Source of the DNA: Thermococci archaeon
GTDB lineage: Archaea; Hadarchaeota; B88-G9
Reading direction: 5' to 3'
DNA: 11,399 bases
Assembly (NCBI GenBank): GCA_003660555.1
Contig: QMUK01000033.1
Coordinates: forward strand, 1-11,399
Position numbers and translations under genes: made by a program. Positions 3,523 to 11,207 of this stretch are shown one piece after another (position 1 is the first letter of the stretch; each line of letters begins with the position of its first letter). Under the pieces are notes generated by a model. It was not told where the DNA came from and searched no databases. It worked only from the letters and a program-made list of their open reading frames with translations.

Positions 3523-4884
3523 ATGCCATTTGACCTATCCCTAATAATTAGAAAAGCTGAAAAATTCGGAGCAAAAGAGGCAGAAGCATTCCTAATAAGA
3601 AGAAGGAAGATGTCATCCGAAATAAAAGGTGGAGAAATAGACTTATCGTCGACAAAGCTTGAAGAGGGAGTTGGACTCAGAGTAGTCCTAGATAAGGGAA
3701 GAGTTGGTTTCTCCTACTCTAATGACCCAAGTAAGCAGGAGGAGTTGATAAAGAAATCCATTAAAGTGGCTAGAGCCAATGAAGAGGATGAAAATTGGCC
3801 TTCTTTCCCTTGTTGCAAAAATTACAGAAGAGTAAAGAACTTTTACAAGGAAGTTGTAAATATGGGATCAGACGAAGTCGTGGAAATGTCTAAATTGATG
3901 TTAGACTCTGCTAAGTTAGACGAAAGAGTACAACCTTTCTTTGGATCCTCTGAAGTAACGTATGACTTCAGAGAATTGTGTAACACTCAAGGAATTCATG
4001 TGGAAGAGGAGAGCACACTTCTCTCTTTGAACTTGTCCACGATAGCCAGAGAAAATGGTAAAGTGTCCCCTATTTGCTTCGAATACGATGTGAGTAGATC
4101 AAAAGACGTAGATCCAGAGAGAGTCGGAAGAGAAGCCTCTGAAATAGCTCTTAAGTGTTTAGAACACTCTAAAATAGAGAGTGGAGAAAAGGACGTACTT
4201 TTCTCTCAGGAAGCCCTCATGATGCTTTGGCTCTTCACCATCTCTCAAGGAATAAAAGGAGATCAGGTACAAAGAGAAACTTCCTTTCTTGCTGGGAAAA
4301 TAGGAGAGAAAGTTGCCTCTGAAAAAGTAAGCTTATCGGATGATGGGACTCTCGAAGGAGGAGTCTTCTCTCATTCTTTTGATGACGAGGGAGTCCCCTG
4401 CCAGAAGACAGAAATAATTTCCGATGGAACGCTAAAGGGATTCATATACGACCACTATTCAGCTAGGAAGGAAGGAAAAGAGAGCACTGGAAATGCATGG
4501 AGGGGAAGGGATTTCTTCGGAGAAAAATTACCGTATACATCTGTTCCAAGGGTAGCAACTACGAATTTAGTCCTAGAGAAAGGGAGAAAGAGTTTGGATC
4601 AACTAATAGACGAGATAGATGAAGGGGTATTGGTGAGATCCCTTCAAGGAGCGCATTCCAGTGATCCAGAAAGTGGGAGCTTCAGTGTCGTTGCAACCCC
4701 CTCATTCCTAATAGAGAAAGGAGAGGTGAAAGGACTACTCAGAGGGATAATGCTATCTGGAAATGCCTTCTCTCTACTGGAAAAGGTGAGAGAACTTTCC
4801 AGAGAGACTAGGACAGCCTATTTCCTAGTAGCTCCTTGGATTCTCTTCGAAGACGTTAGGGTCATAGCCAAGGGAAGTAGTTAA
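3523..4884 (+). CDS. pmbA: TldE/PmbA, non-catalytic partner of TldD
   Basis: This 453-residue protein is a TldD paralogue with the same overall layout. At the place of HExxxH it has SQEALMMLWLFTIS, so it lacks the zinc motif, as expected of TldE/PmbA; this is not degeneration. Shared family landmarks are present: LSDDGTLEGG, FDDEGVPCQKTE, GFIYD, STGNAWRG and a C-terminal LLRGIMLSGN. The partner shapes the substrate channel of the heterodimer. The ATG at 3523 follows directly on the tldD TAG (3520-3522), which favours equal synthesis of the two subunits. Its TAA stop overlaps the stop of the opposing oxidoreductase gene within the palindrome TTAA (4881-4884). In bacteria this pair acts in the cytoplasm; no signal peptide is seen here. 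Confidence 0.93.
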   Translation: MPFDLSLIIRKAEKFGAKEAEAFLIRRRKMSSEIKGGEIDLSSTKLEEGVGLRVVLDKGRVGFSYSNDPSKQEELIKKSIKVARANEEDENWPSFPCCKNYRRVKNFYKEVVNMGSDEVVEMSKLMLDSAKLDERVQPFFGSSEVTYDFRELCNTQGIHVEEESTLLSLNLSTIARENGKVSPICFEYDVSRSKDVDPERVGREASEIALKCLEHSKIESGEKDVLFSQEALMMLWLFTISQGIKGDQVQRETSFLAGKIGEKVASEKVSLSDDGTLEGGVFSHSFDDEGVPCQKTEIISDGTLKGFIYDHYSARKEGKESTGNAWRGRDFFGEKLPYTSVPRVATTNLVLEKGRKSLDQLIDEIDEGVLVRSLQGAHSSDPESGSFSVVATPSFLIEKGEVKGLLRGIMLSGNAFSLLEKVRELSRETRTAYFLVAPWILFEDVRVIAKGSS

Positions 4885-6694: not shown

Positions 6695-7234
6695 CTACTC
6701 CTCTCCTAACGAATCAACTCTTAAGACAGTTTTCCCTCTTTTGGAAGGTATTATCCTGATTTTACAGTTTTTGAATTCCCTCTTCAATTCTTCGCCTGAG
6801 AATATCCTGTCCAATAGTATCGCTAATGCTGAGATCTCAGAGTGAGGTTGATTTCCTATGGCCACGTTCAGATCTGCCAGATCATATATTTCCCTTGGAA
6901 CCTTCTCGGATCCAACTATGACTAGTATTTTCTCGTACTTTCTTATTTCGTTTATTACGTCATCTACATTTATTCCGTACATGGTCAAGTGGACTATTCT
7001 CCATCCTTTTTTCTTTCTCTCTTTTATTTCTCTCTTCCAGTTTATTCCACTTCTTATCCAGAACTCCCCTCCCCATTTGTCCACTAGATCTGATATTTTA
7101 CTTTCTAGTCTCTTGTCTTCCCTATCTATTAGTATCCCAGAGGCTCCGAAAGCTCTAGCAACTAAACAAACGTGAGTAGATACTCTCTTGTCCCTCTCAG
7201 GTCTATGTCCAACCCTCAGGACTACTATTTCCAA
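6695..7234 (-). CDS. trm56: aTrm56, tRNA (cytidine-56-2'-O)-methyltransferase
   Basis: This archaeal SPOUT-class enzyme adds a 2'-O-methyl group to C56 of the tRNA T-loop, using S-adenosylmethionine. The 179-residue protein shows the family signature at its start: [18 protein letters not shown] (5-22) followed by ARAFGASGI (26-34). The SPOUT knot region contains VIVGSEKVP (105-113) and the near-invariant [17 protein letters not shown] (123-139), which forms the cofactor pocket. Length is normal for the family. The start is a TTG at 7234 because the signature begins four residues later. The - strand has GGGAGGGGG one base before it, an unusually close ribosome site. It is divergent from the TFE alpha gene across a 67-base gap that holds a 19-bp palindrome. 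Confidence 0.95.
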
Positions 7235-7246
7235 ACCCCCTCCCAG

Positions 7247-7257
7247 AAGGTTTTAAT
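7247..7257 (+). promoter_or_regulatory. BRE/TATA promoter of the TFE alpha operon
   Basis: AAGG (7247-7250) followed by TTTTAAT (7251-7257) fits the local promoter pattern. It predicts transcription from about 7280, giving a roughly 20-base leader that includes the GGGAGTGAT ribosome site. An alternative is that TATATAATA (7271-7279) is the TATA box, which would make the mRNA start at the ATG; the ribosome site argues for the first reading. Confidence 0.5.
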
Positions 7258-7265
7258 CCGTTTCT

Positions 7266-7284
7266 CTCAGTATATAATACTGAG
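7266..7284. repeat. Perfect 19-bp palindrome in the trm56/TFE alpha divergent promoter
   Basis: CTCAGTAT, a central ATA, then ATACTGAG: both 8-base arms match exactly. It lies between the TFE alpha TATA box and its ribosome site, covering the predicted start of transcription, a typical place for an archaeal repressor operator. Its AT-rich centre could also act as the TATA element for trm56 on the - strand, with transcription from about 7248. Confidence 0.65.
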
Positions 7285-7288
7285 CCAA

Positions 7289-7297
7289 GGGAGTGAT
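7289..7297 (+). promoter_or_regulatory. Ribosome binding site of TFE alpha
   Basis: GGGAGTGAT, four bases before ATG 7302, closely follows the GGAGGTGAT anti-SD complement and selects ATG 7302 rather than the in-frame GTG at 7293, which lies inside the site. Confidence 0.7.
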
Positions 7298-7301
7298 AAC
7301 T

Positions 7302-7823
7302 ATGGAGGGAGACGACTTACTGGAGAGTTCAGGAATAGCCATAATAAGAGGCATAACCGGTGAAAAAGGCGTAATAGTCGTGAGAGCCATGGGAAAAGAG
7401 GAATTAACTGACGAAGAACTCGCTGAGAGAACTAACCTCAAGGTCAATATAGTTAGGAGCATACTCTATAAATTACACGATCACGGACTAGCCACGTATC
7501 GGAGAGAGAGGGACAAGAAGACTGGATGGTACATCTACTATTGGAGACTCACCATAGACAGACTAAAAGATGTAATCCTTCAGAGAAAGAGACTAGTAAT
7601 TAAAAACCTGAAAGAGAGACTGGAATACGAGTTAGGGTCTAAGTTCTTTTTTTGCCCATGCAATGGAAAGAGGTACACATATGAAGAGGCCTTAGAGCAC
7701 AACTTCTCCTGTCCAGACTGCTCTGGAGTAATGCTTGAGATAGACAACTCTAGAATAATAGAGGCACTCAAGTCTCAAATAGAGAAGTTAGAGAAGGAAT
7801 TATCGTCGGAGGAGAATCAGTGA
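7302..7823 (+). CDS. tfe: Transcription initiation factor E subunit alpha (TFE alpha)
   Basis: TFE helps archaeal RNA polymerase melt promoter DNA and stabilises the open complex; it is the homologue of eukaryotic TFIIE alpha. From ATG 7302 the protein has 173 residues. Residues 1-85 form the winged helix (ELTDEELAERTNLKVNIVRSIL at 34-55 is helix-turn-helix-like, with a wing rich in Tyr/Trp: TGWYIYYWRL at 74-83). A linker helix (85-112) leads to the zinc ribbon with Cys118, Cys120, Cys137 and Cys140 around RYTYEEALEHNF. A C-terminal charged helix (150-173) completes the typical layout. The first cysteine pair is CPC, one residue between cysteines rather than the common two or three. It overlaps the next gene by GTGA (7820-7823), so the two are one operon. 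Confidence 0.95.
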   Translation: MEGDDLLESSGIAIIRGITGEKGVIVVRAMGKEELTDEELAERTNLKVNIVRSILYKLHDHGLATYRRERDKKTGWYIYYWRLTIDRLKDVILQRKRLVIKNLKERLEYELGSKFFFCPCNGKRYTYEEALEHNFSCPDCSGVMLEIDNSRIIEALKSQIEKLEKELSSEENQ

Positions 7824-9557: not shown

Positions 9558-9562
9558 CTGCT

Positions 9563-9575
9563 GGGGAGACTCCCC
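9563..9575. repeat. Perfect GC palindrome abutting the hxlB start codon
   Basis: GGGGAG-A-CTCCCC ends on the base before ATG 9576. If transcription starts near 9561 the leader is almost entirely this palindrome, and the only purine-rich ribosome site (GGGGAG) is one arm of it. It may be an operator rather than an RNA hairpin, because a one-base loop cannot close; in RNA the inner pairs would open. Confidence 0.6.
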
Positions 9576-10133
9576 ATGCAATTAGTTAAGGAGGCCATGG
9601 AGAAAATATCTAGGCACGTGATAGATGTATCCTCGAGTTTGGACAGCAAATCAATAGAAAAACTAATAGAGGAGTTATTAAACGCACAAAAAATATTCGT
9701 TTTTGGAACAGGGAGATCTGGCTTGGTGGCCAAGGCATTCGCAATGAGATTAATGCAATTGGGTCTAAACGTCTACGTCATAGGGGAGACAATATCTCCG
9801 CCCACAGAGAAGAATGACCTGATAATACTCGTCTCAGGATCTGGAGAGACGCATTCAGTAGTTTTTGCGGCGCAAGTTTGCAGAAAAATAGGAACGAAAA
9901 TAGTTGGCGTCACTTCAGATAGCAACTCCACGTTAGCTAAGTACTCAGACCTAATAATAACCCTCAAGGGAGGAAACAAATATAGAAAGAATGCCGAATG
10001 GAAAATAGCACCGCTTGGCACATTATTCGAGATAACTGCAATGGTCTTCTTCGATGCTATAGTAGCTGAGTTGATGTCTAGGAAAGGGATGGAGGAAGAG
10101 ACTCTGAGGAAAAGACACGCTATAATAGAATGA
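9576..10133 (+). CDS. hxlB: 6-phospho-3-hexuloisomerase (PHI)
   Basis: PHI interconverts D-arabino-3-hexulose 6-phosphate and fructose 6-phosphate. With hexulose-phosphate synthase it forms the ribulose monophosphate pathway, which many archaea run backwards to make ribulose 5-phosphate for nucleotides. The 185-residue protein is a single SIS domain: FVFGTGRSGLVAKAFAMRLMQLG (41-63, cut at the sugar-phosphate loop), VYVIGETISP, and VSGSGETHSV (86-95), the phosphate-binding serines. APLGTLFEITAMVFFDA (145-161) and the C-terminal RHAIIE (180-185) match PHI, whose members end RHAxLE. Length equals the family norm. The synthase partner (hxlA) is not in the window. The stop overlaps the next start (ATGA, 10130-10133), showing translational coupling. 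Confidence 0.95.
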   Translation: MQLVKEAMEKISRHVIDVSSSLDSKSIEKLIEELLNAQKIFVFGTGRSGLVAKAFAMRLMQLGLNVYVIGETISPPTEKNDLIILVSGSGETHSVVFAAQVCRKIGTKIVGVTSDSNSTLAKYSDLIITLKGGNKYRKNAEWKIAPLGTLFEITAMVFFDAIVAELMSRKGMEEETLRKRHAIIE

Positions 10134-10900
10134 TTCCCGTGGAAAGGAAAAAGGAGTGCAAGGGGGCGAGGGTAGTGGTTGTTGTTAGAGGAATGTTAGG
10201 GGAGCTAGAAGTCCGTCCAGATAGGGGAGAAAAACTCAAGTTCTCTAAGGGTCTAGTGGAAAAAGTCGGTGGAATATTGACAGATGGTGGAGCGATGCTA
10301 ATAGTAGATGATGTAGTCCTGAGGGGAGAAATAGAGGAAAACCAAGAAGTAAGGATAGTCCTTCCGAATGAAATAAAAGAAGTTGCAGAACAAGATGTGA
10401 GGAATAGATTCATCTTCCTAGCATCTCTTGGGAAAATACTCAGAGACATAGGGGCCTCTCCGGAGTCTCATATGGCTTTAATCTCTGCAATAGAGAGAGG
10501 TGGGTCATGGAGCGTTCTAGGGGAGGACAAAGTCATTGCGGTATTAAACAAGAACACGATTCTAGATGAAAGTGGAAAAGGGAAGACTATAGATGAGATA
10601 TATGTTCTGGAAGACCCAATACTTATTCGAAAGGAGGGAGATGTAAGGAGAATAGAGAAATGTGGAGAGAGGGAAAGGGAAATAGTATCTAGACCATACA
10701 TAGTTGAATTCGAGTTTAGAAGGGGGCTTAAAATAGTCATGGACCCCGAGGAGCAAACGATACTCGTAGGGAAGTTGGAAGGAAAAAGAGTAATATTCAA
10801 GGGAACCGCATCATATTCGGCTCATCACGAGTACGAACACATAACAGGGAAAAAGTCTTTCATTTCTCCGATCCATCATCTAAGGATCCTGAAATCCTGA
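10130..10900 (+). CDS. Unknown 256-residue protein with HExxH motif, coupled to hxlB
   Basis: I do not recognise a family. The protein is soluble by sequence: no signal peptide or transmembrane segment. The N-terminal half is strand-rich (ARVVVVVRGMLGELEV at 13-28, GGAMLIVDDVVLRGEI at 53-68, EVRIVLPNEI at 73-82). A helical stretch follows (NRFIFLASLGKILRDIG, 92-108), then a second strand-rich half. Near the C-terminus is SAHHEYEHITG (230-240), which contains HEYEH, an HExxH match that could bind metal; with one motif and no third ligand seen, this is only suggestive. It starts at ATG 10130 inside the hxlB stop, so its product is probably made together with PHI. Its last 41 bases overlap the end of the opposing TFE beta gene. 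A function in sugar-phosphate metabolism would be inference from position only. Confidence 0.88.
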   Translation: MIPVERKKECKGARVVVVVRGMLGELEVRPDRGEKLKFSKGLVEKVGGILTDGGAMLIVDDVVLRGEIEENQEVRIVLPNEIKEVAEQDVRNRFIFLASLGKILRDIGASPESHMALISAIERGGSWSVLGEDKVIAVLNKNTILDESGKGKTIDEIYVLEDPILIRKEGDVRRIEKCGEREREIVSRPYIVEFEFRRGLKIVMDPEEQTILVGKLEGKRVIFKGTASYSAHHEYEHITGKKSFISPIHHLRILKS

Positions 10901-11207
10901 GAAGCCACTCTTCAAGTTTTGGACACTCTCTAACGTTCACTCCAACCTTCTTTCCACACTCCTTCAACTCCGGGCACACTAGGCAGGGCCCCCACTCCTC
11001 TCTTCTTTCGACAGCAAATAGTCTGTAGGTCCATCTACTTTGATGTAGAACTCTTTTCCTGTATATCAGTCCATCCCTCTCAAGTTTTAGAGCAATTCTT
11101 GACCCCTCTCTGCTACTAACTTTAAGAGCCTTCCATAGATCACTCTGCAGTATCCCTTTCTCTCCGGAGGCTTTAACTAACTCATAAGCTTCTTTCAGTA
11201 GGTCCAT
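10860..11207 (-). CDS. Transcription initiation factor E subunit beta (RPC39-like, Fe-S)
   Basis: TFE beta pairs with TFE alpha to form heterodimeric TFE in many TACK archaea and is homologous to the RPC39 subunit of RNA polymerase III. The 115-residue protein has one winged helix (residues 1-66: MDLLKEAYELVKASGEKG, ILQSDLWKAL, GSRIALKLERDGLIYRKR, SRWTYRLF). A cysteine domain follows, with Cys75, Cys78, Cys84 and Cys95 in GPCLVCPELKEC and VRECPKLEEWL. This CxxCP...C...CP.L..WL pattern matches the RPC39/TFE beta cluster, shown in Sulfolobus to hold a cubane [4Fe-4S] cluster. The start is ATG 11207, since GGAGGT lies six bases upstream; the frame is open to 11240 but without support. It overlaps the end of the upstream ferredoxin-domain gene by 13 bases. 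Assignment rests on motif and length and is fairly secure; a generic winged-helix regulator is the alternative. Confidence 0.82.
   Translation of the reverse strand: MDLLKEAYELVKASGEKGILQSDLWKALKVSSREGSRIALKLERDGLIYRKRVLHQSRWTYRLFAVERREEWGPCLVCPELKECGKKVGVNVRECPKLEEWLLRISGSLDDGSEK

Follow-up and report, generated by a model that had tools for sequence, protein, structure and literature searches.

A perfect palindrome over the predicted tfe transcription start is a candidate operator in an archaeal divergent promoter

Results

An exact 19-bp palindrome, CTCAGTAT-ATA-ATACTGAG, occupies positions 7266 to 7284 of the window (the whole 11,399-nucleotide stretch of DNA that was analysed), between the divergent genes trm56 and tfe. 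Judged from its sequence and location, it is a candidate operator for a dimeric repressor that would block initiation at tfe, a reading to which we give an even chance. The palindrome, a feature assigned to neither strand, was recognized by sequence inspection. Its arms (7266 to 7273 and 7277 to 7284) are complementary at all eight positions and enclose a 3-nt loop, ATA, and no other inverted repeat of at least 8 occurs between 7100 and 7400. The initial annotation had reported an exact 8-base dyad in a 67-base gap, and both the dyad, with its sequence and coordinates, and the gap are correct as described: 67 bp of intergenic DNA separate the start codon of trm56 (TTG 7234, minus strand) from that of tfe (ATG 7302, plus strand). 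The perfect 8+3+8 arrangement has two-fold symmetry and spans approximately two helical turns, as expected of an operator for an archaeal dimeric repressor.

The tfe gene (7302 to 7823, plus strand) encodes transcription factor E alpha (TFE-alpha; PF02002, 2.3e-24; NF004910, 188 bits against a cutoff of 180), and the solved structures closest to its product are those of Transcription factor E (PDB 6pln/6kf4, 1.5e-42); an alternative start codon, GTG 7293, is possible. The trm56 gene (6695 to 7234, minus strand) encodes a tRNA (cytidine(56)-2'-O)-methyltransferase (PF01994, 5.5e-50; NF003048, 239 bits against a cutoff of 223). Shine-Dalgarno-like stretches are present upstream of both start codons: GGGAGTGAT at 7289 to 7297 (plus strand) for tfe, and a G-rich stretch at 7236 to 7245 (minus strand), directly upstream of TTG 7234, for trm56. 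The neighbors of the palindrome are trm56 and tfe, and no regulator gene adjoins it.

The position of the palindrome relative to the tfe promoter was assessed with a BRE/TATA model learned from the genome itself by a motif search of 292 upstream regions, which yielded the motif aAAAgTTTTTAt, starting preferentially near -45 and -37. The predicted BRE and TATA box of tfe, AGAAGGTTTTAAT (7245 to 7257, plus strand), scored 9.4-9.8 bits, compared with a 90th percentile of 10.2 for promoters and a 99th percentile of 8.7 for coding sequence. The tfe transcription start predicted from the motif (motif start + 34, i.e., TATA centre + ~26) would be at ~7280 (7278 to 7283, plus strand), within the right arm of the palindrome, such that the palindrome extends from approximately -14 to +4. 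The suggestion in the initial annotation that the dyad covers the predicted tfe start is therefore borne out by the genome-trained element. With the start so predicted, the palindrome overlaps or directly follows the predicted tfe core promoter, which is the placement expected of an operator, and the predicted leader of ~20 nt accommodates GGGAGTGAT.

The main alternative, which we consider a serious possibility while leaning against it, is chance: an AT-rich stretch near the start would simply happen to have complementary pentamer flanks, with no protein bound to it. When the 67-bp gap was dinucleotide-shuffled 20,000 times, a dyad with arms of at least 8 appeared in 83 cases (~0.4%) when the loop was at most 3 and in 182 (~0.9%) when the loop was at most 8, in agreement with the earlier statement that such a dyad is unlikely by chance in a gap of this size. 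By itself, however, this rarity is weak evidence in a genome that has more than 100 divergent gaps. A genome-wide count covered 1.16 Mb of the window's 1.30-Mb draft genome (1175 genes predicted with a simple codon model; gaps of 20-300 bp). Dyads with arms of at least 8 and loops of at most 8 were found in 9 of 117 divergent gaps versus 1.93 expected, and with loops of at most 3 in 5 of the 117 versus 0.96 expected, counts that none of 100 shuffles reached in either case and that should be read with the tfe site itself included and a crude gene caller. There was no clear excess in codirectional gaps (5 versus 2.27 expected) or in convergent gaps (0 versus 0.51).

Perfect short-loop dyads in divergent promoters are thus a genuine class in this genome, of which perhaps one-fifth are fortuitous. 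Divergent gaps as a class exceed expectation 4-5 fold, yet ~1 to 2 of them would be expected to carry such a dyad genome-wide by chance alone, and the tfe site was picked by eye. A dyad of the kind found in the tfe gap is roughly 20% likely to be fortuitous before allowing for selection by eye, and the odds of the tfe dyad itself are somewhat worse because it was both chosen by eye and included in the count. Proximity to predicted starts follows the same pattern: of the 99 promoters whose BRE/TATA is good, 6, including that of tfe, have a dyad with arms of at least 7 no more than 20 bp from the predicted start, versus 1.49 expected and 0 of 100 shuffles. Since dyads at divergent promoters exceed chance, an operator is a reasonable reading of the palindrome.

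Also consistent with chance are the single copy of the palindrome and its lack of conservation in any genome examined. The proposal that a repressor controls this basal factor stood in part, in that an operator is reasonable; a search of the genome turned up no second non-coding copy. The best near match in the whole genome (C131:902) has one mismatch outside the loop and is intragenic. Near matches occur at 10 places in the genome, versus 3 for a reversed control, and all those checked against predicted genes, at up to 3 mismatches, fall in coding sequence, such that no regulon is indicated. Further sites or an adjoining cognate regulator are usual, though not obligatory, for the operator of an archaeal dimeric repressor, and the palindrome could be a single-site operator whose regulator is encoded elsewhere.

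The search for tfe and trm56 covered 27 further same-phylum genomes and 33 genomes of other phyla, the nearest relatives being at the level of the phylum; in same-phylum relatives, tfe is ~40% identical. The palindrome was present upstream of tfe in none of the relatives' regions examined, where the best matches had 5-8 mismatches in 16 positions, as in shuffles. Its absence from distant relatives is uninformative because promoters are not expected to align at such distances, and conservation across the relatives examined gives the palindrome, known from one draft genome only, no positive support. Adjacent trm56 and tfe genes recur across archaea, with varying relative orientation. In nine same-phylum genomes both genes share a strand, with trm56 upstream, and in five they are on different contigs. 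Besides the present genome, only two Odinarchaeia (members of another phylum) among the genomes searched have the divergent arrangement. The gaps of these two are AT-rich and TATA-like, with imperfect or AT-rich dyads, and do not contain this palindrome.

We consider it improbable that the core of the palindrome, TATATAATA, serves as a TATA box, either for trm56 (minus strand) or for a near-leaderless tfe, with the symmetry arising from promoter architecture. Its spacing suits such a role, as it is 47 bp upstream of the trm56 TTG, near the most frequent spacing in the genome, and ~36 bp upstream of the tfe ATG. However, the core scores only 0.4 bits on the minus strand and 1.7 bits on the plus strand, compared with 9.8 for the upstream tfe element, and a leaderless tfe is at odds with the Shine-Dalgarno-like stretch. 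The idea in the initial annotation that the palindrome could double as the trm56 TATA element hence fails on sequence: AGTATTATATAC (7270 to 7281, minus strand) is at a fitting distance, but it is a poor match (0.4 bits) that lacks a BRE. The highest-scoring minus-strand site under the model (7263-7252, 6.9 bits) was rejected as a trm56 promoter element since the trm56 start codon is too near. Moreover, a TATA box leaves the CTCAG/CTGAG outer arms unexplained; these are unlike BRE or TATA, and overlapping promoter elements therefore do not account for them. Two or three other divergent dyads in the genome (L120, L108, L209) do resemble back-to-back BRE/TATA elements, whereas the tfe dyad does not.

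A function in RNA, as a hairpin in the leader or another transcription or mRNA signal, is very improbable; the plus strand gives a stable fold (-13.9 kcal/mol, z -3.5), but folding is expected of any perfect dyad, an mRNA begun at the predicted tfe start inside the dyad could not carry both arms, and an Rfam search gave no match. Least credible of all is autoregulation by TFE, alone or together with TBP/TFB, through binding to the palindrome. The winged-helix domain of TFE-alpha is a fold reflected in weak matches of the tfe product to Sta1/Lrs14 regulator models, but the protein encoded here is a standard TFE-alpha, and TFE is a polymerase-bound basal factor that is not known to bind specific sites. 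The earlier suggestion of autoregulation gained nothing from any of our results, and the available portions of PMC7289017 and PMC4495717 locate the action of TFE-alpha at the clamp of the polymerase and on the melted non-template strand and do not report site-specific binding.

Discussion

From three observations, namely the dyad, its position relative to the BRE/TATA element of the genome-trained model and the excess of dyads in divergent gaps, we infer protein binding and repression at the candidate operator. An archaeal regulator of bacterial type, bound as a symmetric dimer, would occupy the palindrome (approximately -14 to +4 relative to the predicted tfe start) and would exclude RNA polymerase from the tfe promoter, downstream of TBP/TFB, resulting in less TFE-alpha. 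Such a regulator may also affect trm56, whose promoter would lie in the same 67 bp. That this archaeal lineage adjusts the level of TFE-alpha, and perhaps of trm56, by means of a dedicated repressor with sequence specificity acting at the tfe promoter is a tentative proposal that we hold to be doubtful. In other respects the palindrome is an ordinary candidate regulatory site, unusual only in the gene on which it sits. If a repressor site on tfe is real, it would offer a direct handle on how transcription of the TFE-alpha gene is controlled, a subject on which we found no literature; nor did we find, within an incomplete coverage of the literature, any publication on autoregulation of an archaeal tfe promoter or on a palindrome there. 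In Sulfolobus, TFE-beta levels vary with stress (PMC7289017, PMC4495717).

The proposed operator bears similarity to several known repressor sites of archaea. In Pyrococcus furiosus, 75% of promoter-proximal TrmBL1 sites are directly downstream of BRE/TATA, and TrmBL1 bound at such sites represses by blocking polymerase recruitment (PMC4706686). The tfe palindrome is likewise a dyad directly downstream of BRE/TATA, but it differs from TrmBL1 sites (the TGM, TATCAC-N5-GTGATA) in its arms and loop length, and TrmBL1 sites define a regulon whereas the palindrome is present in a single copy. We rejected the palindrome as a TGM, as its arms (CTCAGTAT/ATACTGAG) and 3-nt loop do not match. TrmB at the Pyrococcus trehalose/maltose promoter represses by occupying the core promoter (PMC4706686), as is proposed for the tfe operator; the TrmB site, however, overlaps BRE/TATA, while the tfe palindrome overlaps the predicted tfe start instead.

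The operators of Phr, the ArsR-type heat-shock repressor of Pyrococcus, resemble the tfe site in being palindromes near the start of a core cellular gene. The palindrome sequences differ (ATTATGTCACTGACATAAT at L207, a putative Phr-like locus of this genome, versus CTCAGTATATAATACTGAG), and tfe is without an adjoining ArsR gene. The tfe palindrome was also rejected as a Phr-type site of this genome, its half-site being different from the L207 half-site, ATTATGTCA.

L207 has a dyad of its own at 762-780, ATTATGTCA-G-TGACATAAT, between a CDC48/VAT gene and a divergent gene for an ArsR-family regulator, and this dyad, like that of tfe, belongs to the 6 of 99 promoters described above. The pairing is of the same kind as that of Phr with AAA+ ATPase/VAT genes in Pyrococcus (PMC10746257), and the L207 dyad is probably a Phr-like heat-shock operator outside the Thermococcales. 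Another of the 6 promoters, at L189, has a perfect 10-bp dyad, ACCCAACTTTAAAGTTGGGT (3866-3885), over the predicted gene start. The N-terminus of the L189 product appears ribbon-helix-helix-like by eye (a Pfam search gave no match), and autoregulation by this product is possible. In the window, a further perfect dyad, TGGGGAGACTCCCCA (9562-9576), is near the predicted start of a SIS-domain gene at 9576.

Farther along the window, the minus-strand gene at 10860-11207 likely encodes TFE-beta, with a winged-helix domain (PF04182, 1e-5) and a weak, below-cutoff match to Rpc34 (PF05158, 0.0027). In its product, the winged helix is followed by a cysteine set, CLVCPELKECGKKVGVNVREC, that resembles the [4Fe-4S] domain of TFE-beta. 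If this identification is correct, both TFE subunits are encoded within 4 kb.
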